Below are positions 1,988-51,125 of a stretch of DNA of 64,000 bases, in pieces; position 1 is the first letter of the stretch; each line of letters opens with the position of its first letter. The DNA is taken from positions 186,001-250,000 of the forward strand of contig JAIXSO010000032.1 in the NCBI GenBank assembly GCA_027484685.1, in the 5' to 3' direction. Source of the stretch: Bacteroidota bacterium. GTDB lineage: Bacteria > Bacteroidota > Bacteroidia > UKL13-3. A model generated the notes under the pieces. The model did no database searches and was not told the DNA's origin. It saw nothing but the letters and a program-made list of their open reading frames with translations. Both the position numbers and the translations under genes were made by a program.

Positions 1988-4714
1988 TTATTTCACTCCC
2001 ATTTTGGCTGCGCCAAATTCTAATATACTATCAATAAACTCGTAAGGTTTGTAATTGTTTAAAGCACATTGATGGAAAATAGCCGTGGCTGGAGTCATGC
2101 CTGGCAATGAGTTGATTTCAATAATTACTACCTCTACCCTATTTTTATCGTAAATTCTAACAAAAGCATCAATGCGGCAGTAACCTTCTACATTTAGCAC
2201 TTTAGCAGTTTTCTTCAACACCTCTTGTACTTTTTTACTTATTTCGGCTTGTGCTTTTGCATTTTTACTAAACCTACTTGGTGTAATGTTTTGACCCTGT
2301 CCTGCTAAAAACTTTTCTTCTAACGATAATATTTCGCCTTCGGCCAATGTTTCGCTAGGTTCAAACATTTCGTAAATTAATTTACTGCCTTTAAAATGTG
2401 TAATTAAGCCTCCGGTAACTTCTAAGAAGTGTTTGGCATTTCCTTTTTCAACAAATTTTTCTACTAAAAAATAAGCCTTCATTGGAAATTCTTCTTTTGG
2501 TTTCAAACCCAATCTTTCGGCTAATTCGGCTTCCATTATTTCTAAAGGACGGAAAACTCCTTCCGCGTAATTAATCAAATCTTGTCGGGTTTTAATTTTT
2601 TTAACGGCACTGCTACAGCCATCATCAGCTGGTTTTGCTATTAATGGATAACCAATAGCTTCAACCTTTTTAATAACCTCATCTACATTTTTTTTCCAAT
2701 CTTTTTGCTGAACTAACATATGTTCAGCAACTAGAATTTTATGCTTTTTAAGCAATTCGTTGGTATCGTATTTGTTAATGGTAATTCGGCTGCTTTCAAC
2801 CCCACTGCCATTGTAAGGAATTTTTAGTTTATTTAAATAAGTTTGAACTGTTCCATCTTCACCAGGACGACCATGTAATGCAATAAACACAGCATCGGCC
2901 ATTTTTTTCAAATCTTTGTATTCAATTTTTTTAGGAGCAAATAATTGACTTTCTGCATTACCATATTTATCAATTATCAGTTTGCATTCAGCAATAATTT
3001 TTTCCATTATTGGCAAGCGTTTATAACTGCTCAATTTTTCTTTTATATCATCAGCATTGTCTTTTAGCATAACATTAACCGGCAATAACCAAAGTTCGTG
3101 TGCGCTATCATTACCTGTTACAAAAACCGGAAAAGGTTGGTATTTAGCCGAAGAAGCTAATTTTTCATAAATATTTCTTCCACTTTCTACCGAAATATGG
3201 CGCTCGGTAGAATAACCACCCATAAATACAGCCACACGCTTTTTAGTGCTTTTTTGCTTTTTATTGCTAGCAATTTTTGCATCTAAATAATTTAACAATT
3301 CGATGTGATGAAAATGAACTTGCTGCGAATAAGCTCTCTCGGCTAATGAAGTACGAATAATATACGTTAAAAATTGAGATGGATTTAAACCAATTTCGGC
3401 AGCTTGATGAAAAAAGAAACTAGAAGGCATCATACCACTGGTGGTATTTGGGTCGTTTAAAAATAACTCACCTTGGTTATTTATAAATCCATCAATACGC
3501 GCATACACGTGGAAATTAAAGAAGGTAAACAATTGCTCGCATGCTTTTCTAATTTCATCTATTTTACTTTCAGCAATATCAATTGGAGTAATTTTTCGGC
3601 TTAAACCTGGCAAATATTTACTGCGGTAATCATATACTTCTTTGCCTTTAACTATTTCAGTTGGAGGCAATGCTACTGGGGTTCCATCTTCATTTTTTAA
3701 TACAATACAACTAAACTCTCTACCCTCAATAAATGATTCAATTAAACATTCCGTTTCGGAGTAAATGCTTTCCAAAAGAATTGTTGAATTGTTGATTGGT
3801 TGATTGGTTGATTTAGATTTACTCTTTAACTGTGAACTAGGTACTAAATACTGAGAACTAAATAATTCCCACAAATCGTCAGGGTTATAAATTAATTCTT
3901 TTTGACCATTAATAGTAACTATGGCTGGTAAACCAATTCCTTCTTTTACATCAGTAATTTTTTGAATGAATTGTGTTTTGGCTTTTTGGTCTAAATCCAC
4001 CCATTCATTAGCCGACACCTCTTGAATAAAAAACGATTTTAAAACCGCGTCTTCAAATTGCTCAAAATTATCTGTACTAATAACCGAAACACCCACCGAA
4101 CTACCTTGATTAGCAGGCTTTACTACAAATGGAAAACCAACTTCTTCAATAACTTTTTTATAAATATTTTTTAAATCAGGTAATTGATTTTTGGTAAACG
4201 AAAAGTATTTAGGAACATTCATACCTGCACTTTTCATTAATTGTTTTTGTAAGCGTTTGTTCATCCCTAAAGCACTAGGCATAATGCCCGAACCACTGTA
4301 AGGAATATCCATAAACTCCAATAAACCTTGTATGGTTCCATCTTCGCCATTGGCGCCATGTAAAGCTAAAAAAGCAAAATCAATCAACCCTTTTAAATCT
4401 TCAGGTTTAATGGTTTTTCCTAATTTTTTTATTAATGATTTACCATTATCCTCATGAGCAGCGGCCAAATTTTCGGCATATACCTGAACCTCGGTTTTTT
4501 GGTTTTTTAAAGCAGAAACAGGTGGGTAAAAATCACGGATAGAACCTTTGTAAATATACTCCCAATCAAGTAAAACAAAGTTGTTAAAGCTATCCACAAA
4601 AATGGGAATGGCTTCAAAAAGCGTTTTATCTAAATTATCATAAACGGTGCGTCCACCTGCAAAACTTACCTCGCGCTCGCGGCTATTGCCACCAAAAAAT
4701 ATACCTATTTTCAT
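1988..4714 (-). CDS. double-length D-alanine--D-alanine ligase (two tandem Ddl/ATP-grasp modules)
   Basis: About 908 residues, some two and a half times a normal Ddl (300-360). The N-terminal half begins IGIFFGGNSREREVS and holds the ATP-grasp features KPANQGSSVGV and LNDPNTTSGMMPSSFFFHQA. The second half begins again near residue 490 with VAVFMGGYSTERHISVESG, then KPADDGCSSAV and IEINSLPGMTPATAIFHQ. Both halves keep the fold, but their active-site texts differ. D-Ala-D-Ala ligase makes the dipeptide for peptidoglycan precursors. I start at 4712-4714, where MKIGIFFGG matches the Ddl N-terminus. A possible -7 box (TACGTTTG, 4754-4761 minus) would exclude the start 14 codons upstream. Residues about 284-311 are a low-complexity insertion. 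Substrate identity of each half is inferred. Confidence 0.85.
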   Translation of the reverse strand: MKIGIFFGGNSREREVSFAGGRTVYDNLDKTLFEAIPIFVDSFNNFVLLDWEYIYKGSIRDFYPPVSALKNQKTEVQVYAENLAAAHEDNGKSLIKKLGKTIKPEDLKGLIDFAFLALHGANGEDGTIQGLLEFMDIPYSGSGIMPSALGMNKRLQKQLMKSAGMNVPKYFSFTKNQLPDLKNIYKKVIEEVGFPFVVKPANQGSSVGVSVISTDNFEQFEDAVLKSFFIQEVSANEWVDLDQKAKTQFIQKITDVKEGIGLPAIVTINGQKELIYNPDDLWELFSSQYLVPSSQLKSKSKSTNQPINNSTILLESIYSETECLIESFIEGREFSCIVLKNEDGTPVALPPTEIVKGKEVYDYRSKYLPGLSRKITPIDIAESKIDEIRKACEQLFTFFNFHVYARIDGFINNQGELFLNDPNTTSGMMPSSFFFHQAAEIGLNPSQFLTYIIRTSLAERAYSQQVHFHHIELLNYLDAKIASNKKQKSTKKRVAVFMGGYSTERHISVESGRNIYEKLASSAKYQPFPVFVTGNDSAHELWLLPVNVMLKDNADDIKEKLSSYKRLPIMEKIIAECKLIIDKYGNAESQLFAPKKIEYKDLKKMADAVFIALHGRPGEDGTVQTYLNKLKIPYNGSGVESSRITINKYDTNELLKKHKILVAEHMLVQQKDWKKNVDEVIKKVEAIGYPLIAKPADDGCSSAVKKIKTRQDLINYAEGVFRPLEIMEAELAERLGLKPKEEFPMKAYFLVEKFVEKGNAKHFLEVTGGLITHFKGSKLIYEMFEPSETLAEGEILSLEEKFLAGQGQNITPSRFSKNAKAQAEISKKVQEVLKKTAKVLNVEGYCRIDAFVRIYDKNRVEVVIIEINSLPGMTPATAIFHQCALNNYKPYEFIDSILEFGAAKMGVK

Positions 4715-4901: not shown

Positions 4902-7163
4902 ATGAAAAAAAATTTACTTCTGTTATTCATTATCAGTCCAATAGTTTTGTTAGCGCAAGATTTAGGTTCATATGCAAATGCCTTGAGGTTAAATTATGAA
5001 AATGATTTAATTAAAGGTAAACAATTGCTAAAACCACCTTTTCTAAATATAACACCAATTGAGGAAAATGGCAGCACAATTGCCTTTGATGGCTTTGGCG
5101 ATAATGGCTTTCCCGAGTACAAAGTTACTTGCTCCAATATTGGCTTAGCAGCTACAGTTAATGCCAATCAACTTTGGCCAAGTGGATTACTGGGTTTAAA
5201 CTTAAGTGGAAATGGAATAAATGCTTTAGGAATTTGGGACAGCGGAAGAATAAGACTTACACATAGAGAATTTTTAGGCCGTGTTACTCAAATTGATACT
5301 CCAGCTAATTTTTCAACGCATTCAAATAATGTTGCAGGCTTAATGATTGCTTCAGGAGTTACTAGCACTGCAAAAGGAATTGCCTTTCAAACAAACTTAA
5401 AAGCTTGGGATTTTACCAACGACAGGGCCGAAATGGCATTGGCTGGAAATGGATTATTACTTTCAAATCACTCGTATGCCAACTCTGCTGCTTGGATTTT
5501 TTCTGGGGGATTTCAATATTGGCTTGGCGATACTACTTTAAATGCAACTAAAGATTGGAAATTTGGATTTTATGATTCACGCACCAAAGAGTTTGACAGC
5601 ATATCTTGGGCTAATCCCAATTATTTAATAGTAAAAGCTGTAGGAAATGATAGAGGTAATTCGAAACCGGCTGGCACACCTCATTATATTTGGAATGGCA
5701 CAACTTGGGTTTTAACAACTGCAAACAGAGATACAGTTGGGCCATACGATTGTATAGTAACTTATGGAACAGCAAAAAATATTTTAACTGTTGGAGCCAT
5801 TGATATATTGCCAAATGGATTTATATCTGCTCCAATTAATACCATTAGTTTTAGCAGTTGGGGCCCAACCGATGATGGACGCATAAAACCTGATTTAGTT
5901 TGCGGAACCAACACTTCTTCAACCCCAACTAGCACCAACGATTCGGCTTATGGAAGTTTAGGAGGAACCTCTATTTCATCGCCAGGAGCTGCGGCTAGTT
6001 TACTTTTGATACAACAACATTATTTTAACTTAAAGGGTAAATACATGAAAGCTTCATCGTTAAAAGGTTTAGCTATTCATACTGCTACTAATTTAAAAAC
6101 TACTTTAGGACCAAATTACGAAAGTGGTTGGGGTTTATTGAACGCAGCCAAAGCAGCTCAAACCATTACTGATTCAAGTAAAAATTTTATAAAAGAACAT
6201 AACTTAATTAACAACGATACCTTTAAATTTATAATAAATGTAAATGGTTTAGATACATTTAAAACTACCTTATGTTGGACCGATCCTCCAGCCATAGTTG
6301 GCGCTCCAGCTTTTAACGACACTACTAAAAAACTGATTAACGATTTAGATATAAGATTTATAAACAACAGCACCAATGTGGTTTATTTCCCATATATTTT
6401 AAATCCAAGTGTGCCAAGTGCAGCGGCTACTAATGGCGATAATTTTAGAGATAATGTAGAGCAAATTTATATTCCAAACTTACCAAGTGGCAATTATACC
6501 ATAAGGGTTACACATAAAAACAATTTGCAAAACAACAATCCTCAAGCGTTTTCAATTATAGCTAGTGGAGTTACTTTAACAGCAACTTTACCTGTAAAAT
6601 GGTTAAGTTTCGCAGGCAAAAATGTAAACAATGATGTTCAGCTTGATTGGCAAACGGCTCAAGAAATAAACAACAAACATTATGAAATAGAACGTGCTAC
6701 CAATAATCAAAACTTTACTACAATAGGCATTGTTAATGGAAGAACTAATGCCAATACCGTAAGCAAATACAGCTATTTAGACAACTTAAACAATTTAGAT
6801 AAAACCGTAGAGCTAACCGATAATATTTACTACCGATTAAAGCAAGTTGATTTAGATGGCCAATACCATTATTCAAAAACAATAAGTGTAAAAGCACCTC
6901 TTTTGGCAACCTTGAGTGTGTACCCAAATCCATTTAATGAAAGCTTGTTTTTGAAAGTAAATAGCAATCAATTAAACCAAATATTTTCAGTTCAAATTAT
7001 TGATATTGTAGGAAGAGAAATTTTGTCAAAATCATTTACAAATGAAAGCAAACAATTTGATTATGAAATCAGCGAGGTAAAAACATTGAATATGGGTGTA
7101 TATATTCTTAAATTTAATTATAACAACAAAACAATTGTATATAAAATAATTAAATCAAACTAA
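4902..7163 (+). CDS. secreted S8 (subtilisin-like) serine protease with T9SS sorting domain
   Basis: A 753-residue exported subtilase. After a Sec signal peptide (about residues 1-18, ending LLAQ) comes the peptidase domain with Asp113 (GIWDSG), His140 (STHSNNVAG), the oxyanion Asn in VGNDRG, and Ser357 in GGTSISSPG. A beta-rich domain follows near residues 430-570. The C-terminal ~80 residues (SVYPNPFNESLFLKV to GVYILKFNYNN) are a type A T9SS sorting signal, so the protein is probably moved across the outer membrane and either anchored or released. TACTTTTG at 4858-4865 could be its -7 promoter box. It stands alone and converges with the next gene, overlapping it by 4 bases. Confidence 0.92.
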   Translation: MKKNLLLLFIISPIVLLAQDLGSYANALRLNYENDLIKGKQLLKPPFLNITPIEENGSTIAFDGFGDNGFPEYKVTCSNIGLAATVNANQLWPSGLLGLNLSGNGINALGIWDSGRIRLTHREFLGRVTQIDTPANFSTHSNNVAGLMIASGVTSTAKGIAFQTNLKAWDFTNDRAEMALAGNGLLLSNHSYANSAAWIFSGGFQYWLGDTTLNATKDWKFGFYDSRTKEFDSISWANPNYLIVKAVGNDRGNSKPAGTPHYIWNGTTWVLTTANRDTVGPYDCIVTYGTAKNILTVGAIDILPNGFISAPINTISFSSWGPTDDGRIKPDLVCGTNTSSTPTSTNDSAYGSLGGTSISSPGAAASLLLIQQHYFNLKGKYMKASSLKGLAIHTATNLKTTLGPNYESGWGLLNAAKAAQTITDSSKNFIKEHNLINNDTFKFIINVNGLDTFKTTLCWTDPPAIVGAPAFNDTTKKLINDLDIRFINNSTNVVYFPYILNPSVPSAAATNGDNFRDNVEQIYIPNLPSGNYTIRVTHKNNLQNNNPQAFSIIASGVTLTATLPVKWLSFAGKNVNNDVQLDWQTAQEINNKHYEIERATNNQNFTTIGIVNGRTNANTVSKYSYLDNLNNLDKTVELTDNIYYRLKQVDLDGQYHYSKTISVKAPLLATLSVYPNPFNESLFLKVNSNQLNQIFSVQIIDIVGREILSKSFTNESKQFDYEISEVKTLNMGVYILKFNYNNKTIVYKIIKSN

Positions 7164-10949: not shown

Positions 10950-13064
10950 CTAACTTATAGCGCCCCATTTATTGGTTTTTCGATATAGCATAAGGTATTG
11001 GTTTAAAATAACATTTTCGGGTTTTTGTAAAGTATTATCGTTTTCAAGTATTAATTGTGCTTCTTTTCGAGCTGCTTCTAGTATTTCTTTATCGTCAATA
11101 ATACTCGCAATGCGCAAATCTAACACACCACTTTGCATGGTTCCTTCCATATCGCCCGGACCACGCAGTTGTAAATCTACTTCACTAATTTTAAATCCAT
11201 CGTTGGTTTCTACCATGGTTTTCATACGCAGCTTTCCATCTTGACTAATTTTAAAATCGGTCATTAATATACAATAACTTTGTTCTGCTCCCCTACCCAC
11301 TCGGCCGCGTAACTGATGCAATTGCGATAAGCCAAAACGTTGCGCACTTTCTATTATCATTACACTGGCATTGGGTACATTTACTCCTACTTCTATAACT
11401 GTGGTAGCCACCATAATATTGGTTTCACCTTTTACAAAACGCTGCATTTCAAAGTCTTTTTCGGCAGGTTTCATTTTGCCATGAACCATGCTAACCGCAT
11501 AAGTTGGTAAAGGAAATTCTCGGCAAATGCTTTCATATCCTTCGGCTAAGTTTTTAAAATCTAACTTTTCGCTTTCGGCTATCAAAGGATAAACAATATA
11601 CACTTGCCTTCCTTTATTGATTTCATTTCTTATAAAACCATAAACTTCTAAACGGTTATTATCGTATTTATGAATCGTTTTAATTGGCTTACGTCCGGCA
11701 GGCAATTCGTCTATCATACTGGTATCCAAATCGCCATAAAGGGTCATGGCTAAAGTACGCGGAATGGGTGTAGCAGTCATTACCAAAATATGTGGCGGAT
11801 GCTCATTTTTTTTCCAAAGTTTAGCCCTTTGTTCTACACCAAATCTGTGTTGTTCATCAATAATGGCAATGCCTAATTTATTAAATTCCACAGCATCTTC
11901 AATCAATGCATGGGTGCCAATTAAAATATGAATTTCGCCACTTTTTAAACCTTCATGAATGGGCCTACGGTTCTTTTTGGTTTTGGAACCTGTGAGTAAC
12001 TCTACTCTAACAGGCAAATCGCCCAATAAAGTTTTGATGGTTTCAAAATGTTGATTAGCTAAAATTTCGGTTGGAGCCATAAGCGTAGCTTGGTAACCAT
12101 TATCAATAGCCATGAGCATACTCATAAGGGCAACTACTGTTTTTCCACTGCCAACATCGCCTTGCACCAAACGGTTCATTTGTTTACCGCTACCCATATC
12201 TACCCTTATTTCTTTTAAAACCCGCTTTTGGGCATTGGTTAATTCAAAAGGTAATTGATGGTTATAAAATCCGTTGAACAAATCGCCAATTTTGGCAATT
12301 TTTATTCCATTAAATACAGTGTGACGTTTTAATTTATAGCGCAAAATGCGCAATTGATTAAAAAATAATTCTTCAAACTTTAGGCGTTGTTCAGCCGCAT
12401 GTAACAGTTGAAACGATTCGGGGAAATGAATTTGCATCATGGCTTGTTTACGGCTCATCAGCTTGTGTTTAGCTACCAAATAATCGGGCAAATTTTCCTC
12501 TATCTGCAAGCGTGCATCGGTTAACAAAGTATTGGTTAACTTCATTAAATACTTGGTATCAACTCCTCGTTTTTTAGCCTTTTCGCTGGCATTATAAAGC
12601 GGCATCATTTTTAAATACAGCTTTTCGTTAACCAATGTAGGGTCTTCCATACTTGGGTGAACCATGCTAAATGTGCGGTTAAACTCAGTTAGTTTACCAA
12701 AAACCACATACACTTTACCAGCCAATAAACTATCTTTTATCCATTTTTGCCCTTGAAACCAAATGAGTTCAATGCTGCCTGTTCCATCGTTAAAGTTTGC
12801 TACTAACCGCGCTCCAGCACCTTGACCAATGGAACGCAAATTACTTACAGTTCCTTTTAGCTGAATGTATTGCATAGTATCGTCAAGCTGACTGATTTGA
12901 TAGGTTTTACTCCTATCGATATGCCTATAAGGAAAATAGTACAGCAAATCATTAAAGGAAAAAATATTATATTCCTTTTGCAAAAGTTCGGCCTTTGCTG
13001 CACCTACTCCTTTTAAATATTCTATTTTAGTTTGTAAAAACGAATTGCCTTGCATGTACTTCAT
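10950..13064 (-). CDS. recG: ATP-dependent DNA helicase RecG
   Basis: RecG is a monomeric superfamily 2 helicase that remodels stalled replication forks and Holliday junctions. The 704-residue length is normal. The N-terminal wedge/OB region (about 60-170) is followed by the helicase core: Walker A GDVGSGKT near residue 301, DEQH near 402, TATPIPRTLA, and the motif VI region SQLHQLRGRVGRG. A C-terminal TRG-like segment (LQLRGPGDMEGTMQSG) is present. The start could be Met1 or Met4 (MQGNSFL). It is flanked on both sides by repeat-rich intergenic DNA. Confidence 0.96.
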   Translation of the reverse strand: MKYMQGNSFLQTKIEYLKGVGAAKAELLQKEYNIFSFNDLLYYFPYRHIDRSKTYQISQLDDTMQYIQLKGTVSNLRSIGQGAGARLVANFNDGTGSIELIWFQGQKWIKDSLLAGKVYVVFGKLTEFNRTFSMVHPSMEDPTLVNEKLYLKMMPLYNASEKAKKRGVDTKYLMKLTNTLLTDARLQIEENLPDYLVAKHKLMSRKQAMMQIHFPESFQLLHAAEQRLKFEELFFNQLRILRYKLKRHTVFNGIKIAKIGDLFNGFYNHQLPFELTNAQKRVLKEIRVDMGSGKQMNRLVQGDVGSGKTVVALMSMLMAIDNGYQATLMAPTEILANQHFETIKTLLGDLPVRVELLTGSKTKKNRRPIHEGLKSGEIHILIGTHALIEDAVEFNKLGIAIIDEQHRFGVEQRAKLWKKNEHPPHILVMTATPIPRTLAMTLYGDLDTSMIDELPAGRKPIKTIHKYDNNRLEVYGFIRNEINKGRQVYIVYPLIAESEKLDFKNLAEGYESICREFPLPTYAVSMVHGKMKPAEKDFEMQRFVKGETNIMVATTVIEVGVNVPNASVMIIESAQRFGLSQLHQLRGRVGRGAEQSYCILMTDFKISQDGKLRMKTMVETNDGFKISEVDLQLRGPGDMEGTMQSGVLDLRIASIIDDKEILEAARKEAQLILENDNTLQKPENVILNQYLMLYRKTNKWGAIS

Positions 13065-13771
13065 TGCAATGATAAGTGATTTTTTTTATTTCCGATATTC
13101 GTTGATCGATGTTCGTTGTTCGAGGTTGATTGTTGCGAGTTAGTTATTAGATGTTCTTCATTGCGAGGTACTGCCTGTCCCGACTCAGCGGGAAAACAAT
13201 CTCACTGAAATTATTCAATATTCGTTGTTCGCTATTTCTCAATTCCTAATTCATATTTCCCAAGTGCCCATTGCCTATTGCCAAAGGTCGCTGAGCGGAG
13301 CCGAAGCGTTGCCTATTGCTTATTGCCAATTGCTCATTGTTTATTGCTTATTACTTTTTCCGTTGGCTAAAGCCGAACGGCCATTGATCTTTTGCTGATA
13401 TTATATTACTAATTACTAATTGCCCATTGCCTCCTGCCAAAGGTCGCTGAGCGGAGCCGAAGCGTTGCTTATTGCTTATTGTTCATTGTTCATTGCCTAT
13501 TCCCGCCCAGTCATGCCGGAGGCATCTTCCTTAATTAACTAAGACTTTTCCATTAACAATTTGTCATTTAGGCATCAGTCAAAAATTGAACTTAACTGTA
13601 AACATTAGGGTTTTCTAATATGAAAAATATTTTCCAATTTTTCTCCATTTTAAATACTGTAATAAAATTAACACTCAGTTAAATTCAACTTGTTTTAGTA
13701 GCATAAATAAATAAGTTTGTATAAAGTAAAAAGCATAAACTTATTGCACCAATCCAACTTAATTTGGGTGA
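13065..13771. repeat. long non-coding gap made of degenerate repeats
   Basis: No gene is visible in about 700 bases. The gap holds two copies of the GGTCGCTGAGCGGAGCCGAAGCG element (13286-13308 and 13442-13464). It also holds a CTGTCCCGACTCAGCGGGAA-type copy (about 13173-13194), a GTCATGCCGGAGGCATC copy (13510-13526) and a hairpin around CGTTGGCT/AGCCGAACG (13361-13379). Long runs of quasi-repeats built on TATTGC and TGTTCG fill about 13095-13500. The last 200 bases are plain AT-rich DNA that probably carries the promoter of the next gene. Confidence 0.7.
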
Positions 13772-14762: not shown

Positions 14763-15557
14763 ATGTACAAAAATACAGTAGCAATTTTTCTTTTACTCTT
14801 TGCTCTTAATAGTTGCACACAGCAGCAAAGTAAAAATGATTCTGAAAGAAAAACTTTTAACATTCCTATTGTTATTCAGGAGCAAACCAAAGACACTGTA
14901 GAGCTTTTTAAATATGATGCCTTGAGTGAAGTGTGGTTTAAGTTTTACGGTAAGTATAAATTTACCGACACATTGAAACTTGCAGAAAATCACAAACGCT
15001 ATACAACTTATAGAGAAGATTATATTCACGAATATTGGAGACCTGCAGAGAAAGACACTTTAACAACTGACGGCTTTCAAATTTTCCCTGACTATAAAAC
15101 AACTATTTATCACAAAGAAGATTATTTAAAGAGAGGCAATTATTATTTTCCTGTTTATGTGGTTAATGAAACTTCAAGAACCAAGGTATTTACAGCCAAA
15201 GACAGTTATGTTTTTGGGGTTCAAGAAGCAATTGATACCAACGAATGGCATTTATGGCGACCAATCGAATCAAGGGGTTCTGATTTCTGTGGAAATGGAT
15301 ATTGGGGACTTAAAATCCATCCAAGAGAATTTATTATGTTTTTAGTTCCCAAATATGATGGAAAAGAAAAGCAACGTATGAGAATACGTTTGCAAATAGG
15401 TGAATCAATTTACATATCTCAATCGTATGAAGGTACTTTTAACCGCAAACAATTTGAAATAAAGAAAAAATCTTGGATGGATAATACTTTAAAAGAAGAC
15501 AAAGCATCTATGATTAAAGGATTATTTTATGGAGCAACACCAAAAGGATATGACTAG
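14763..15557 (+). CDS. hypothetical lipoprotein
   Basis: A 264-residue predicted lipoprotein. Starting at the second Met (14763) gives a normal SPII signal, KNTVAIFLLLFALNSC, with the lipid-bearing Cys near residue 18. The mature domain is beta-rich and hydrophilic, with no motif I recognise. It sits between the two FG-GAP-like paralogues and between the two twin-hairpin elements, so it may belong to a small envelope-gene cluster. No function can be assigned. Confidence 0.7.
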   Translation: MYKNTVAIFLLLFALNSCTQQQSKNDSERKTFNIPIVIQEQTKDTVELFKYDALSEVWFKFYGKYKFTDTLKLAENHKRYTTYREDYIHEYWRPAEKDTLTTDGFQIFPDYKTTIYHKEDYLKRGNYYFPVYVVNETSRTKVFTAKDSYVFGVQEAIDTNEWHLWRPIESRGSDFCGNGYWGLKIHPREFIMFLVPKYDGKEKQRMRIRLQIGESIYISQSYEGTFNRKQFEIKKKSWMDNTLKEDKASMIKGLFYGATPKGYD

Positions 15558-15614
15558 GAAAGATAAATTGTATCAATAAAAAACCACAAAATCATTTACA
15601 ATCAAATGAAAATT

Positions 15615-15650
15615 ATGAAACTAGCCCATTTTTACAAAACCATATTTAGC
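15615..15650 (+). pseudogene. 5' fragment of the FG-GAP lipoprotein gene
   Basis: Bases 15594-15650 duplicate the upstream region and first dozen codons of the lipoprotein gene that starts at 15763 (MKLAHFYKTIF here, MKQTHFSKTLF there). The copy stops where the twin-hairpin element begins. It looks like a truncated gene copy or a target-region duplication made when the element arrived. Confidence 0.6.
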
Positions 15651-15722
15651 CGCTGTTGGCGTCCCCGCCAACAGCTAAAAGTACCGATACAAAATTGCAG
15701 GCGAGGAGGCCTGCAATGGCTG
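15651..15722 (+). repeat. twin-hairpin element, copy B
   Basis: Two near-perfect hairpins, GCTGTTGGCG/CGCCAACAGC (15652-15675) and ATTGCAGGCG/GCCTGCAAT (about 15694-15716), are joined by a spacer containing TAAAAGTACCGATAC. It is the same structure as copy A, about 1.1 kb upstream. Confidence 0.8.
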
Positions 15723-15762
15723 AATTTAAAACAATTACTCATTTTACAATCAAAAGAAATTT

Positions 15763-16458
15763 ATGAAACAAACCCATTTTTCCAAAACCTTATTTTATTG
15801 TTTTATACTTTATTTTTTTAGTTGCACTAATGGCACTAATACTTATGAAAATAATAAAATTGATTCCTTAAATATCAATAAGGATATTGAATTAAAAAAC
15901 ACTTTTTTTCATTTGAAAAAACTATCAATTACTGGGGATTTTGATGGGGATGGTAAAGTAGATACTTTGTGCCAAAATACCATCAATGAACTAACTAAAC
16001 AGACCATTGATAGCTTTCCCGATTCTCAATGGAACTCCATAGAAAACTATTTTGGGTTAATGAATGCCGATGTGCAATTATTTATGAGTAATAAAACAAG
16101 TGATACCTTACATTTAGGTGCAGGAGGCAGTCTATATTGTTTAATTAATATTGGAGATAATAATAAAGACAATAAAGATGAAATAGCTGTTGTGGTAGAT
16201 TATTACGATTTTACCAATATTAGTACCTGTTTTATTTATTCTCTTTGCAGTAATAAATGGAAAGAAATAAAATCATTTAAAGTTTTTGAAAGCGCTTTTG
16301 AACATGAAGGCGATTCTATACCCAATTTTAAACAAATAAATGGTTATCTTGAATACAGAAAAAACAAATGGTATTATATTGATTATACTGATTTATTTAA
16401 CGCAGAAACGGATAAAGACACCATGTTAAAACCTTTAATAATTAAAAAGTGTAAATAG
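15763..16458 (+). CDS. FG-GAP/VCBS-like lipoprotein, paralogue 2
   Basis: A 231-residue predicted lipoprotein (lipobox FFSC near residue 21). It carries two Asp-rich loops, GDFDGDGKVD near residue 65 and NIGDNNKDNKDE near residue 132, typical of calcium-binding FG-GAP/VCBS strands. It shares most of its length with the 13772 gene, including LHLGAGGSLYCLINIGDNN and KNKWYYIDYT. The function is unknown; an outer-membrane or periplasmic location is inferred from the lipobox. Confidence 0.75.
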   Translation: MKQTHFSKTLFYCFILYFFSCTNGTNTYENNKIDSLNINKDIELKNTFFHLKKLSITGDFDGDGKVDTLCQNTINELTKQTIDSFPDSQWNSIENYFGLMNADVQLFMSNKTSDTLHLGAGGSLYCLINIGDNNKDNKDEIAVVVDYYDFTNISTCFIYSLCSNKWKEIKSFKVFESAFEHEGDSIPNFKQINGYLEYRKNKWYYIDYTDLFNAETDKDTMLKPLIIKKCK

Positions 16459-30985: not shown

Positions 30986-31729
30986 CTATTGCTTATTGTC
31001 CATTAACTTCAATACTTTTTCTACATCTTCTGGGGTGTCTATGCAGTGGCTATCGTGCTCGGTAATGGCACATTTAATTTTAAAATCATTTTCTAACCAA
31101 CGCAATTGTTCTAACGATTCGGCTTTTTCTAAACTAGATGGCCGTAATTTACATACTGCTTCTAAAATATCGTTTCGATAAGCATACATGCCCACATGTC
31201 GATAATAGTTATGATGTAAATGCCATTCAGATTGAGGTACACCTTTAATGTAAGGAATTACCATTCTGCTAAAATACAATGCTTCGTTTTGAGTATTTAA
31301 AGTAATTTTCACTTCGCCCATATCAAATAAAACCTCGTGGTTATCTACCTTTATCATTAAAGTAGCCAATTCCGTTTTTCCATCACAAAGCGCGGCTAGT
31401 AGTTCTATTTGGCTTGGGTCAATAAAAGGTTCATCGCCCTGAATATTGATTATATATTGCGCATCAAAACCAGCATTTTTTAAGGCTTCAAAACTTCTAT
31501 CAGTTCCACTAGGATGGTCTTTTTTGGTATAAACAGCTTTGCCTCCAAAACTTTCTACATGGTTATAGATGCGTTCATCATCTGTTGCCACTACTACATG
31601 AGCCAACGATTTAGCCTTACTAGCTTGTTCGTAAACTCTCTGAATCATGGTTTTACCTTGAATATCAATTAATGGTTTTCCTGGAAAACGCGAACTGTCG
31701 TATCGTGCGGGTATTATTCCTACTATCAT
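30986..31729 (-). CDS. kdsB: 3-deoxy-manno-octulosonate cytidylyltransferase
   Basis: KdsB activates Kdo as CMP-Kdo for the inner core of lipopolysaccharide, so the cell makes a Kdo-containing LPS. The 247-residue length is normal. Visible motifs: IIPARYDSSRFPGKPL at the nucleotide-binding N-terminus, VVATDDERIYNHV, DHPSGTDRSFEAL, NIQGDEPFIDP and the C-terminal EHDSHCIDTPEDVEKV. The final codons (MDNKQ) run into the ATTGC-type quasi-repeat that fills the downstream gap. No other LPS genes are adjacent. Confidence 0.96.
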   Translation of the reverse strand: MIVGIIPARYDSSRFPGKPLIDIQGKTMIQRVYEQASKAKSLAHVVVATDDERIYNHVESFGGKAVYTKKDHPSGTDRSFEALKNAGFDAQYIINIQGDEPFIDPSQIELLAALCDGKTELATLMIKVDNHEVLFDMGEVKITLNTQNEALYFSRMVIPYIKGVPQSEWHLHHNYYRHVGMYAYRNDILEAVCKLRPSSLEKAESLEQLRWLENDFKIKCAITEHDSHCIDTPEDVEKVLKLMDNKQ

Positions 31730-31768
31730 TGCTAAATTTTTTTCAATAATACACTAATGCTTGCAAGT

Positions 31769-32110
31769 ATTCAACTCCTTTGGAGTTGATTTGTGATGGT
31801 ATATTCGTAACACCGAGTTTCACTCGGTGCTATTCATATTTAACTCCTTCGGAGTTACTAAATAAAAATATGAATGGCTTATCAAATAATTTCAACTCCA
31901 AACTCAGAATAAGTTCATTATAGAATCACCAAACAAAGTTCAAGTGATTTAAAATAGAGCAACTTCAGAAGGAGATTATTTTTATCGAAATATAAAAATC
32001 TTTATACCAACTACAAACTCCGAAGGAGTTTAATATTAATAGACCTGCATGAAATGCAGGGAAAACAGTATAAACGTAAATCAACTCTGAAAGAGTTGAA
32101 TAGCAGATTT
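31769..32110. repeat. hairpin repeat block 1 (single-unit form)
   Basis: A 342-base block with at least four hairpins: CAACTCCTTTGGAGTTG (31772-31788), CACCGAGTTTCACTCGGTG (31811-31829), AACTCCTTCGGAGTT (from 31842) and AACTCCGAAGGAGTT (from about 32016). After these comes a CCTGCATGAAATGCAGG hairpin (about 32044-32060). Hairpins and the sequence between them match block 2 (33957-34668) nearly base for base and in the same orientation. Block 2 has three extra internal units. Confidence 0.9.
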
Positions 32111-32243
32111 AATTGGAAAACCATATTTCTGAGCAAACACTTACCGAAAAACGTTGATATTTATTAAATGTTATATAATTCTACTTTATTGTCTTCTATT
32201 GTAAAAATTTGGTTACGGCCCGAAAACTTTAAACGCGAATAAT

Positions 32244-33380
32244 TTAAGTCAGAATTAGGTTTAAAACACAACTTAAAATACCTAACAAAGGCAATAAACG
32301 TTTAAAAAAATGAACTAAGTAGTTGGTATTGGTAATACATTCTAAACTATTATAATACCAATACCTAACTGCTAATAAAATAGCCGATATAACCATGATT
32401 ATTCCAAAAATATCAATTAAAAAAATATATTGTTTTAAACTAAATGCTATTAAAACTCCAGCAAAAAAAATAAAGTTAATTATTACAGTTCCAAAGTCCC
32501 AAAACAGTTTTTCTTGATTACTAAATATATGTTCAAATTCTGGAATGGGAGTTTTAACTTCTTTGTTGGCATTATGTATATCTTCTCTGTTAAACGAATA
32601 ATTTTCGTTTACATTCAACGGATTCTGATTCAACAAATAACATAAATGATAATACAGAGTAGGTAATTCAGCCTCAAATAAATCAGGTATTTCAAAAAAG
32701 TTTTCTATACAAACCGAAAAAAACTCAGCTTCATTGGTTGAACCATACGATCTAAAGAAATTATCTGACCCATTTCTATGGTTAATAAACGACATCATGG
32801 CTATTTCATTGTATTCATCAAAATAGTTACTAAACTTGGTATCTAAATTCCCATCAGAAAAAGTTTGCATGCGCAACATGTGTGCAAACTCGTGTAATCC
32901 TAAATTGTAAGTATCTCTACTATCTTCGTAACCTTCCACAAAATGGGGCCAGCTTATAAAAACCACTCCATTACCCATTGCCAAGCCTTTAACCCAATTT
33001 TCAATTAACCTACTGTAAAATATATCAGGATAAACTACCACACCTTTTAACATTTCTATATGTGGATTTTTAAACCCATAAGTAAGCTGAGCCAAACAAC
33101 CACTTATAAAAATATCCATTTCTTGTGTATATTCAAGTTCTTCGCGGGTTTGAATTTCAATGCTGCGACTTAGTTCAATGCTGCGTTCTATAAATTTTAC
33201 TTTTCCAACTGCATCGAGTTTTTGAAAATAGGGAAATTGGTTTTCGTAAAATTGGTTAAATGCATAAAAATCAGAATCTGTTGCATCGTAATTATCATCA
33301 GTAGCATCGGGCTTTGCCAAATAAAAATATCGGATATATGCCCACAAAAAAATGATAATAAAAATGGTGATGGTTCCCAA
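32244..33380 (-). CDS. MtfA-like (M90) zinc metallopeptidase with membrane anchors
   Basis: A 378-residue protein. One N-terminal helix (about 3-20) anchors a catalytic domain of the M90/MtfA type: HEFAH at 163-167 supplies two zinc ligands, and NEAEFFSVCIENFFEIP (216-232) carries the third ligand and family signature. Two or three hydrophobic helices lie near 293-378. Other MtfA proteins are soluble peptidases that can act on regulators such as Mlc; no target is evident here. The only in-frame start is TTG at 33378-33380. It lies 87 bases downstream of the RAYT gene, and both sit between the two repeat blocks. Confidence 0.82.
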   Translation of the reverse strand: MGTITIFIIIFLWAYIRYFYLAKPDATDDNYDATDSDFYAFNQFYENQFPYFQKLDAVGKVKFIERSIELSRSIEIQTREELEYTQEMDIFISGCLAQLTYGFKNPHIEMLKGVVVYPDIFYSRLIENWVKGLAMGNGVVFISWPHFVEGYEDSRDTYNLGLHEFAHMLRMQTFSDGNLDTKFSNYFDEYNEIAMMSFINHRNGSDNFFRSYGSTNEAEFFSVCIENFFEIPDLFEAELPTLYYHLCYLLNQNPLNVNENYSFNREDIHNANKEVKTPIPEFEHIFSNQEKLFWDFGTVIINFIFFAGVLIAFSLKQYIFLIDIFGIIMVISAILLAVRYWYYNSLECITNTNYLVHFFKRLLPLLGILSCVLNLILT

Positions 33381-33467
33381 ATGTATTCTGCTATTAATTC
33401 ACGATTATAATAATTTTATTATTAATCTTTCATTTTGAAATAAAATATGAAATTACTAGCATTAATT

Positions 33468-33914
33468 TTATAAGAGATATTTTTCGTCAAACTCAATTTG
33501 ATGTGCTCTCAATAATTCAATATACTCCTCTTTAAAACTTTTATTTAAATGATGCTCTTCTTGATTTTTAATATACTTAATCAAACTATCTTTTTCTTGA
33601 ATAGAATAAGTAAAGGCTCCATAACCTTCTTGCCATCCAGCAAATTTAGGAAATATATTATGCGTTTTAATTAATTCAGAACTAGATAATTTAATGTCTT
33701 TAACTAATGATGACAATGACACACTAGGATGTAAATGTGTTAATATATGAATATGATCTGTGACGCCACCAATTTGATATAAATGACAATTTTTATTTTT
33801 TAAAACACCCCAAATATATTGATACAGTTCCTTTTGATTATTTTTATCTAATGTTTGCTCTCTGTTTTTTGTACTGAAAATAATTTGATATAATATTTGA
33901 GTATAAGTGCTCAT
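33468..33914 (-). CDS. REP-associated tyrosine transposase (IS200-like, Y1)
   Basis: A 148-residue single-strand transposase of the IS200/RAYT group (HUH endonuclease). The metal-binding motif is HIH at 54-56 in GGVTDHIHILTHL, the catalytic Tyr is probably Tyr114 in SLIKYIKNQEEHH, and the family text WQEGYGAFTYS (94-104) is present. Such enzymes nick hairpins and are thought to move REP elements. Its start codon is only 43 bases from repeat block 2, and block 1 lies 1.36 kb beyond its stop. That is the expected geometry for a RAYT with its cognate repeats. No catalytic residue looks missing. Confidence 0.92.
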   Translation of the reverse strand: MSTYTQILYQIIFSTKNREQTLDKNNQKELYQYIWGVLKNKNCHLYQIGGVTDHIHILTHLHPSVSLSSLVKDIKLSSSELIKTHNIFPKFAGWQEGYGAFTYSIQEKDSLIKYIKNQEEHHLNKSFKEEYIELLRAHQIEFDEKYLL

Positions 33915-33956
33915 CTGAGAATAAATTTTAACAATTATAAATTAAACCATACAATT

Positions 33957-34668
33957 ATTCAACTCCTTCGGAGTTGTTTTGTGAAGGTATATTCATTACA
34001 CCGAGTTTCACTCGGTGCTATTCATATTTAACTCCTTCGGAGTTACTAAATATAAATATGAATGGCTTATCAAATAATTTCAACTCCAAGCTCAGAATAA
34101 GTTCATTACAGAATCACCAAACAAAGTTCAAGTAATCAAAAATATAGCAACCTCCGAAGGAGATTATTTTTTATCGAAATATAAAAATCTTTAAGCCAAC
34201 TACAAACTCCAAAGGAGTTTAATATTAATAGCATTGCATGAAATGCAGGGATAAAAGAGTAAGCACAAAACAACTCCGAAAGAGTTGAATTTTATTTAAC
34301 AAGATAAAGTTATGTAAACCAAATACGAACTCCGAAGGAGTTTAATATTAATAGCATTGCATGAAATGCTGTGTTAAAAGAGTAAGCAAAAAACAACTCC
34401 GAAGGTGTTGAATTTTATTTAACAAGATAGGGTTATATTAACCAAATACGAACTCCGAAGGAGTTTAATATTAATAGCCCTGCATGAAATGCAGGGTTAA
34501 CAATATTAACGCAAATCAACTCCGAAGGTGTTGAATTTTATTTAACAAGATAGGGTTATGTTAACCAAATACTAACTCCGAAGGAGTTTAATATTAATAG
34601 CCCTGCATGAAATGCAGGGTTAACAGTATTAACACAAATCAACTCCGAAGGAGTTGAATAACAGATTT
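33957..34668. repeat. hairpin repeat block 2 (four tandem units)
   Basis: The first ~300 bases match block 1. A unit of about 122 bp is then repeated, with copies starting near 34195, 34317, 34440 and 34562. Each has an AACTCCGAAGGAGTT hairpin, TTAATATTAATAG, a CCCTGCATGAAATGCAGGG hairpin and a second AACTCCGAAGG(A/T)GTT hairpin. Inner copies are almost identical. The right end (TTGAATAACAGATTT) matches the end of block 1. Array and hairpins lie directly upstream of the RAYT gene. Confidence 0.92.
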
Positions 34669-34696
34669 TATGAAAAACATCCAAATAAAAATCCAT

Positions 34697-34731
34697 AAAA
34701 AAATCCCAACTGATTGCTCAATTGGGATTTG
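34697..34731 (-). terminator. intrinsic terminator of the dihydrolipoyl dehydrogenase gene
   Basis: AAATCCCAA (34701-34709) pairs with TTGGGATTT (34722-34730). On the minus strand a T run follows. It lies 85 bases past the lpd stop. Confidence 0.75.
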
Positions 34732-34815
34732 ATTAATTATATTTCGTTATTCGTAATTCGAACTTTGAATTTCGTGCTTCGAATTTCGCACTCAACAATT
34801 CGAATTCCGCACTTA

Positions 34816-48560: not shown

Positions 48561-49080
48561 TTCCAAGCAACAAAAGGAATATACAAACCCAACCGCTTTA
48601 GCCAAAAACTAAATCCCCGCTGGTGCGAGCGCAATATCATTAAGTTAAGTAATCTCAGACCTTGAAAAGGTCAAATGTTTATAGCAATCAGAAATTGATT
48701 GATGGGTGCGACCCCGATGGGGTCGAATGTTTTATGGCAAATATTTTCTATAAATAGGTGACTCCGTTGGAGTCATTTCCTTAGCTTAATAATATTAGGT
48801 GCGATTGTCCGATCGTTCCAACCAACAAAAGGAAAATACTAAACCAACCGCTTTAGCCAAAAACTAAATCCCCGCTGGTGCGAGCGCAATATCATTAAGT
48901 TAATTAATCTCAGACCTTGAAAAGGTCAAATGTTTATAGCAATCAGAAATTGATTGATGGGTGCGACCCCGATGGGGTCGTATGTTTTATGGCAACTATT
49001 TTCTATAAACATGTGACTCCGTTGGAGTCATTTCCTTAGCTTAATAATATTAGGTGCGATTGTCCGATAGTTCCAACCAA
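48561..49080. repeat. 255-bp tandem repeat array with three hairpins per unit
   Basis: Two full units (48561 and 48816) and the start of a third (49071) are exactly 255 bp apart. Each unit holds ACCTTGAAAAGGT, CGACCCCGATGGGGTCG and GACTCCGTTGGAGTC hairpins, plus an ACCGCTTTAGC tract that matches the 5' half of nearby terminators and the fixed text CCCCGCTGGTGCGAGC. Units are about 95% alike. The rest of the 48343-49200 gap is quasi-repeat DNA (about 48425-48490) and no gene is visible. Confidence 0.9.
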
Positions 49081-50921: not shown

Positions 50922-50940
50922 TTAGTACAAGGTAAATGTT

Positions 50941-51125
50941 ATTAAGCTAAGTAATCTCAGACCTTGAAAAGGTCAAATGTTTATAGCAATCTGAAATTGT
51001 TTGATGCGACCCCGATGGGGTCGTATGTTTTATGGCAACTATTTTCTATAAATAGGTGACTCCGTTGGAGTCATTTCCGCAACTTAATAATATTAGATGC
51101 GAGCATCCGCTCGTTCCAAGCAACA
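50941..51125. repeat. diverged single copy of the 255-bp repeat
   Basis: It contains the same three hairpins in the same order as the 48.6-49.1 kb array: ACCTTGAAAAGGT, CGACCCCGATGGGGTCG and GACTCCGTTGGAGTC. It then has GCGAGCATCCGCTCG and CAACAAAAG. It lacks the CCCCGCTGG segment. Confidence 0.85.

Follow-up and report, generated by a model that had tools for sequence, protein, structure and literature searches.

The DNA considered here, hereafter called the window, is a stretch of 64,000 nucleotides from a Bacteroidota bacterium (Bacteroidia; UKL13-3), positions 186,001 to 250,000 of contig JAIXSO010000032.1 in assembly GCA_027484685.1. We were interested in a gene within it, tnpA, which encodes a Y1 transposase, and in the two blocks of DNA hairpins that accompany this gene. 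Here, we report a comparative analysis of the locus, based on draft assemblies and metagenome bins, which suggests that the gene and the hairpins probably constitute a system akin to REPtrons, the loci where a REP (repetitive extragenic palindrome)-associated tyrosine transposase (RAYT) is flanked by REP hairpins, and to REPINs, the inverted pairs of REPs, in this case built on an enzyme of the IS200 type (class 1). The genome of the window is denoted G000, two near relatives G003 and G006, and a more distant relative G009; the genus sample consists of 10 genomes. The locus contains the following features.

31769–31856, plus strand: module A of block 1
31857–32015, no strand: spacer of block 1, 159 nt
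32016–32101, minus strand: module B of block 1
32208–32242, plus strand: 3' remnant of a gene retained in G003 and G006, where it lies beside an OmpA-family gene; in G000 this is the block 1 region
32244–33380, minus strand: M90/MtfA-like metallopeptidase (motif HEFAH, PF06167), a resident gene outside the element
33444–34682, no strand: 1.24-kb insertion (tnpA plus block 2), present in G003, absent from G006 and G009
33468–33914, minus strand: tnpA, IS200/IS605-type Y1 (HUH) transposase of 148 aa with the subclass 1.2 signature
33957–34044, plus strand: module of type A of block 2 (outer hairpin, CACCGAGT stem, outer hairpin)
34045–34204, no strand: spacer of block 2, 93% identical to the spacer of block 1 over 105 nt
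34205–34290, minus strand: module of type B of block 2 (CCCTGCAT-type stem), copy 1
34328–34413, minus strand: module B of block 2, copy 2 (123-bp period)
34451–34536, minus strand: module B of block 2, copy 3
34574–34660, minus strand: module B of block 2, copy 4, outermost

An original prediction, made from the letters of this stretch alone, had described two similarly oriented hairpin blocks flanking one RAYT gene and one gene for an MtfA-like peptidase. The blocks are where they were said to be, and both open reading frames (ORFs) lie between them. Block 1 (31769–32101) aligns in direct orientation with the start of block 2 (33957–34290) at 91% identity over 333 bp, a span that takes in the spacer. 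In each block, two modules of about 88 nt face each other, A forward, then a spacer, then B reverse, as an inverted pair; block 2, which as a whole spans 33957–34660, is the longer of the two because it carries three extra 123-bp copies of its last module. The repeat was thus correctly expected to be far larger than a classical REP, the actual unit being the ~88-nt, three-hairpin module rather than the block. A hairpin scan of the window gave 18 matches, three of which belong to a different repeat family at 48.7–51.1 kb, whereas 30 mononucleotide shuffles averaged 1.3 and never exceeded 5, so that the count is not due to chance. A known structured RNA was rejected as an identity for the repeats, since no Rfam family reached its gathering score within 31600–34800. 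The array of B modules behaves as a variable-number repeat, with four modules in G000 (34205–34660) and two in the G003 orthologue (locus L098, 6361–6577).

The module consists of two outer hairpins of one family with a central hairpin between them. The first outer hairpin, ATTCAACTCC-TTC-GGAGTTG, is followed by a variable stretch, the central hairpin (an 8-bp stem with a loop that is mostly TTC) and the second outer hairpin, AACTCC-TTC-GGAGTT, and each outer hairpin is preceded on its 5' side by a foot of the TATT type. Among 42 distinct 5' flanks directly ahead of the AAC stem, one of which comes from a misread module of locus L105, TTC is present in all 42 and ATTC in 39; the GTAG (GT[AG]G) foot of classical REPs occurs in none of them. 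For an analysis of pairing, we aligned 44 modules, 42 from the genus and two from genome G039, that had been gathered through their outer hairpins, allowing two mismatches at most, the central hairpin playing no part in the selection. This alignment, A1, leaves out locus L163, which is the same locus as L158 in a near relative (95% identity over 3.3 kb), and two misread L105 modules, and keeps L098, the orthologue of block 2. Across A1, 95.7% of 923 cells are paired and both sides have changed in 11 of 21 pairs; the covariation score is 0.219, whereas shuffles give 0.082, with none of the 500 reaching the observed value, and sliding the partners gives no more than 0.059. In the central helix, 93.4% of the cells are paired, with two-sided changes in 6 of 8 pairs. 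For the four window modules that were examined, folding as single-stranded DNA gave z-scores of −6.8 to −7.4. The pattern of strong compensatory change argues that the module is a structure under selection.

The product of tnpA matches PF01797 with 86.3 bits (threshold 23) and exceeds the cut-off of the NCBIfam IS200/IS605 model (68.9 versus 55). Its motifs are DHIH, WQ and YIKNQEEHH, the catalytic ones intact, and with about 148 aa and low copy number it fits subclass 1.2 of the TnpA_Y1 proteins (DH[IV]H, WQ, Y---Q--HH). A classical RAYT (class 2), the name originally given to the gene, does not apply in the strict sense: the REP_Tyr_transpos model scores 28.8 versus a cut-off of 80, and the tyrosine motif is YIKNQEEHH rather than Y...NP. 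By its sequence, then, the gene is best classified as an IS200-type (class 1) Y1 transposase with the subclass 1.2 signature. A sequence search of the Protein Data Bank (E up to 0.001) returned two weak matches only (E 6e-4 and 7e-4), the ISHp608 transposase and entry 2vhg, which is labelled 'transposase ORFA' there and which we take to be the ISDra2 transposase. G000 itself has nine Y1 transposase genes, 30–100% identical to the query and all with Y...Q..HH; two of these, 74% identical to each other, belong to the clade defined below.

The two members of an inverted pair differ in their central stems. Inverted module pairs occur in G000, G001, G004, G009 and other genomes, and among module pairs within 1 kb of each other in the genus and G039, a central stem is shared in 0 of 19 pairs of opposite orientation and in all 12 pairs of the same orientation (11 loci; several pairs per locus, so that they are not independent). 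Before the removal of two L105 'modules' (7315 and 7466) that proved to be misread pairs of outer hairpins, and that were the source of all four same-orientation exceptions, the counts were 0/21 and 13/17; the non-redundant count also leaves out L163 and L098. One L098 module, at 6448, failed the central-stem filter. In the wider clade, the central stems differ in 16 of 18 opposite pairs and agree in 9 of 12 same-orientation pairs (p 0.001). The spacers within pairs that lack a gene are mostly unrelated, apart from blocks 1 and 2, L105 and L157, and one shared locus; beyond block 1, the spacer of block 2 is matched only in its G003 orthologue. The pairs are therefore not simply deletion derivatives of one element.

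The association of modules with the gene extends well beyond the genus. A scan of genome contigs yielded 108 relatives; the 80 best of these were retained, giving 79 loci that were picked by similarity of the gene (38–99% identity). All 69 survey proteins of at least 130 residues show Y...Q..HH, and 61 of 80 rows (survey plus window) show all three motifs. Perfect hairpins (≥7 bp) have a density of 3.03/kb within 800 bp of the gene versus 0.30/kb beyond 2 kb; the 177 kb close to the gene hold 69 strict three-hairpin modules, the 266 kb far from it hold 4, and five shuffles of the near-gene sequence hold none. A covariance model, R1, was built from A1, so that 42 of its 44 rows represent this genus and the other two G039; at E up to 0.01, it matched 61 of the 79 loci, with 197 matches in total. 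With the three loci of the model genomes set aside, 58 of 76 loci have matches, 170 of these lying within 1 kb of the gene and 10 beyond 2 kb, and of 91 nearest modules within 300 bp of the gene, 85 point outward (p 6e-19).

In a tree of 78 proteins, which rests on few columns and whose bootstrap has not settled, the window protein falls within a clade of 56 (support 99/93) that comprises members from Bacteroidota, Ignavibacteriota, Balneolota and Calditrichota and single members from other phyla. The other clade loci (L170–L224) have R1 matches in 52 of 55 cases and nearest modules pointing outward in 78 of 83; for L226–L246, matches are found at 6 of 21 loci. Strict modules, likewise, occur at 34 of 54 survey loci of the clade versus 1 of 15 outside it. 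Two observations stand apart from these counts. The more distant members L238, L240 and L242–L246 (Flavobacterium and kin), which have the same tyrosine motif, show a different recurring hairpin downstream of the gene, of the ATAGTGC type and often joined by one of the CATARCGC type; and L217 carries six tandem repeats with a period of ~88 bp upstream of the homologue (~3250–3730).

Modules are also dispersed away from the gene, as assessed in 58 relatives and, by one pattern, in 8 further genomes. There are further copies in the genome and its relatives: R1 finds at least 33 modules in G000, seven of them at this locus, and at least 2–24 in each of the other nine genomes of the genus, while at least 26 of the 58 genomes overall have matches, all lower bounds given the stricter filters and the 72 candidates scored per genome. 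Relatives carry blocks at unrelated sites without linked genes, the very finding that the original prediction had named as its refutation. Modules were found in all 11 genomes with a clade transposase (≥54% identity) versus 15 of 47 others, and outside the genus in 6 of 6 versus 10 of 42 (p 7e-4); G016, counted here as lacking such a transposase, does contain a clade-like fragment of 22 residues at the edge of a contig. The exact hairpin AACTCCTTYGGAGTT is present in 12 of 58 genomes, namely 9 of the 10 of the genus plus G041, G047 and G057, whereas the reversed control was not found in any. The single copies in G041 and G047, which belong to other families, adjoin the transposase or its fragment. 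Belliella, Algoriphagus and their kin have a central-hairpin pattern of their own, found in 6 of 8 genomes searched with 1–6 copies each (control, 0); most of these 22 copies lie inside the transposase cluster and about five on other contigs.

Close relatives permit reconstruction of how the locus was assembled. In G006, where the flanks are ~93% identical, the gene order is kdsB, an OmpA-family gene (PF00691; 135 aa), a 256-aa ORF without a Pfam family, which is the source of the 3' remnant in G000, the peptidase and lpd. The positions corresponding to 33443 and 34683 are only 5 bp apart in G006; tnpA and block 2 (1239 bp) are therefore absent there. G009 has the peptidase in place and the same empty site, and in G004 and G005 the interval between the peptidase and lpd has neither room for the insertion nor its hairpins. 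G003 possesses tnpA (protein 99% identical) and block 2 and lacks block 1, which is absent from its G000 site in both G003 and G006. In G000, block 1 stands in place of ~1.2 kb (window 31752–32245; L099, 6700–7924) that held the OmpA-family gene and the second ORF, both kept in G003 and G006. The sequence AAATAAAA is found at both junctions of the 1.24-kb insertion, although it is ambiguous in such AT-rich DNA. The simplest account is that the ancestor of G000 and G003 acquired tnpA and block 2 in a single insertion, and that block 1 came by a separate event seen only in G000. The empty sites of G006 and G009 and the lack of block 1 in G003 thus imply two arrivals rather than one composite unit, and the direct-repeat bracket is a coincidence of the two.

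Several proposals about the peptidase and the bracketed segment could accordingly be set aside. The peptidase was considered as cargo, as the original prediction had it; it occupies the same place on its own in G006 and G009, the orthologous pair is linked in 2 of 58 genomes (G000 and G003), and by these comparisons it is an old resident gene and not part of the element. The 1.85-kb interval between the blocks is ruled out as a mobile unit by the empty sites and by G003, and a composite transposon with both blocks as its ends and both genes moving together is contradicted by G003, G006 and G009. What held up is the smaller of the units that had been envisaged, a multi-hairpin block of ~335 bp found without a gene at a new site, namely block 1. 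Elsewhere, contig C328 of G002 has an M90 homologue (29% identity; 12678–13601) 1.8 kb from a Y1 homologue (42%, with one internal stop; 15407–15829); judged by identity, this is a different M90 gene.

Taken together, these observations make a REPtron- or REPIN-like system on a class 1 transposase the probable explanation. The REPtron arrangement is there, in that the hairpins flanking the gene recur elsewhere in G000, and so is the layout of REPINs and of bacterial interspersed mosaic elements (BIMEs), with two inverted units and a linker, although the unit itself is larger. Several findings pull the other way. Strict modules are present at just 40 of 79 loci, and R1 has no match at 18 of 79. 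Outside the genus, the rule of unlike central stems is broken by 2 of 18 opposite pairs, at L208 and L215, and by 3 of 12 same-orientation pairs. Copy numbers, at least 2–33 modules per genus genome, are low for REPs, which reach hundreds. G002, G006, G007, G008 and G009 have modules and no close transposase was found in them, which in draft genomes may reflect loss or missing sequence; G057 has one copy of AACTCCTTYGGAGTT and, again, no close transposase was found. The 1.24-kb insertion, the single insertion site that could be resolved, carries hairpins at one end only, and block 1, given that it coincides with the ~1.2-kb loss, may have come by recombination. Finally, among two G000 and two G006 gene-less pairs that were checked, no clean empty site was found; block 1 is the sole gene-less pair with one. 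For the two G000 pairs, one flank only was found in relatives, among the matches listed. The flanks of the L148 pair (G006) sit apart in G000 and G003, the L149 pair (G006) has its right flank and one module in common with G000, and these two pairs may lie at rearrangement breakpoints.

If TnpA does work in this way, its cognate DNA would be the ~88-nt three-hairpin module, and the dispersed element would be a pair of modules, A and B, inverted around a variable spacer, exemplified by block 1 and by the A-spacer-B portion of block 2. HUH/Y1 enzymes, including those of IS608 and ISDra2 and TnpA_REP, act on single-stranded DNA (PMC6006769 and PMC8266576), and TnpA most likely acts on single-stranded modules as its relatives do. 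We infer that it would fold modules out of single-stranded DNA, on the lagging strand or in a replication gap, recognize the outer hairpins and the foot, nick near the foot via its tyrosine, and move A-spacer-B pairs in trans, occasionally along with its own gene. That the gene can travel with modules is suggested by the joint insertion of tnpA and block 2. Owing to the inversion of A relative to B, each strand presents just one of the two in the recognized orientation, which is also the situation for REP and inverted REP in BIMEs. In the circle formed by IS608, both ends are used on one strand; a REPIN-like route would therefore fit this orientation better than an IS608-type circle. We propose that the central stem could distinguish the two ends for the enzyme or prevent their mutual pairing. 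The 123-bp array of B modules has probably grown by slippage or repeated processing.

Going further, we tentatively raise the possibility, which we would not yet favor, that an IS200-type enzyme independently turned into a REPtron, which would represent a third lifestyle among HUH-Y1 transposases. Its recognition module would be a composite of three hairpins, in which the outer hairpins would be common binding sites, the central, freely covarying hairpin would be a code for end identity (A versus B), and only unlike ends would be paired. Such a system, which would occur in Bacteroidota, Ignavibacteriota, Balneolota, Calditrichota and several further phyla, would be an intermediate between an insertion sequence and a domesticated RAYT.

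Of the competing explanations, the one that survives best, albeit as a rather unlikely one, is an ordinary insertion sequence of the IS200/IS605 family with ornate ends, the dispersed pairs being decayed copies or miniature inverted-repeat transposable elements. A score above the NCBIfam IS200/IS605 cut-off, a single clean 1.24-kb indel made up of tnpA and block 2, and gene surroundings in G000 and G003 that differ from those in G001, G004 and G005 are all what this would lead one to expect. However, each transposase lineage is low in copy number, the two clade members of G000 being 74% identical; the modules are mutually inverted and outnumber the genes (at least 33 modules versus two clade genes in G000); the insertion has hairpins at one end only; and the mostly unrelated spacers of the gene-less pairs are unlike internal deletions of one insertion sequence.

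We find it distinctly improbable that the modules are autonomous signals for transcription or mRNA decay, or structural DNA, spread by recombination and slippage, with the transposase merely hitch-hiking. The tandem 123-bp copies, their varying number (four B modules in G000, two in G003), the genomes with modules and no close transposase, and the pairs at rearranged places are compatible with such a scenario; yet hitch-hiking hardly explains the regular outward placing beside homologous genes in several phyla or the co-presence of gene and modules across genomes. A composite mobile unit of direct hairpin blocks carrying the transposase and the peptidase is highly implausible: although both genes are flanked by the two blocks in G000, block 1 is missing from G003, which has tnpA and block 2, the peptidase stands without transposase or blocks in G006 and G009, and the orthologous pair is linked in two of 58 genomes.

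The window contains a second three-hairpin family, with stems GACCTT, CGACCCC and TGACTCC, at 48633–48790, 48888–49045 and 50935–51085, two of the copies forming a 255-bp tandem. It is found at 25 places in the genome, none within 9 kb of the nine Y1 transposase genes of G000, and it matches R1 weakly.

The closest described proteins are those of subclass 1.2 (Quentin et al. 2018, PMC6006769): 148 aa, with DH[IV]H, WQ and Y---Q--HH, from Bacteroidetes and low in copy number. The proteins studied here resemble them in length, motifs and copy number. The 2018 description presents this subclass as generally lacking REPs or terminal hairpins, which is not matched by our survey loci, where hairpins and modules are enriched near the gene; cognate hairpin modules accompany a large clade here, one copy of which inserted recently. 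Hairpins were not reported for subclass 1.2 in the literature searched, subscription papers and preprints lying outside its scope. The published view of subclass 1.2 as devoid of associated structures would accordingly be amended. REPtrons and IS200 enzymes are already known; what appears to be new is that an IS200-like protein is combined with a REPtron-like arrangement and with its own composite module. A class 1 transposase with REPIN-like modules and at least one recent insertion offers a system for studying the step from IS200/IS605 elements to a domesticated, low-copy RAYT; clade members occur in named isolates of Algoriphagus, Belliella and Cyclobacterium, and the notion that unlike central hairpins mark the two ends provides a simple, testable rule.

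The similarity to REPtrons, in which RAYTs (TnpA_REP) are accompanied by REPINs or BIMEs (PMC6006769, PMC8266576), consists in a Y1 gene flanked by cognate hairpins, in tandem repeats and in dispersed inverted pairs whose linker varies; two REP types are likewise combined in the BIMEs of E. coli. The differences are that the present protein belongs to class 1 (IS200-like) and theirs to class 2, that the GTAG foot is absent here, that the unit comprises three hairpins and ~88 nt rather than one hairpin of 20–50 nt, and that copies number in the tens rather than in the hundreds. TIRtrons (Di Nocera et al. 2013, PMC3733652) also have Y1 genes (TIRYT) flanked by inverted repeats without GTAG; 20 of 26 described TIRYT belong to subclass 2.1 (PMC6006769), and their terminal inverted repeats (TIRs) are long, several with a GGGGWSAS motif, unlike the three-hairpin modules. 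Subclass 2.6 and class 3 Y1 proteins (PMC6006769) share the presence of flanking atypical secondary structures without GT[AG]G, but differ in their tyrosine motifs (YIH[QN]NP and Y----Q, respectively) and lengths (179 and 178 aa). With IS200/IS605 elements such as IS608 and ISDra2, finally, the system has in common an HUH/Y1 transposase and hairpins near the gene, whereas its modules are mutually inverted, many of them gene-less, and its insertion is devoid of symmetric terminal hairpins.

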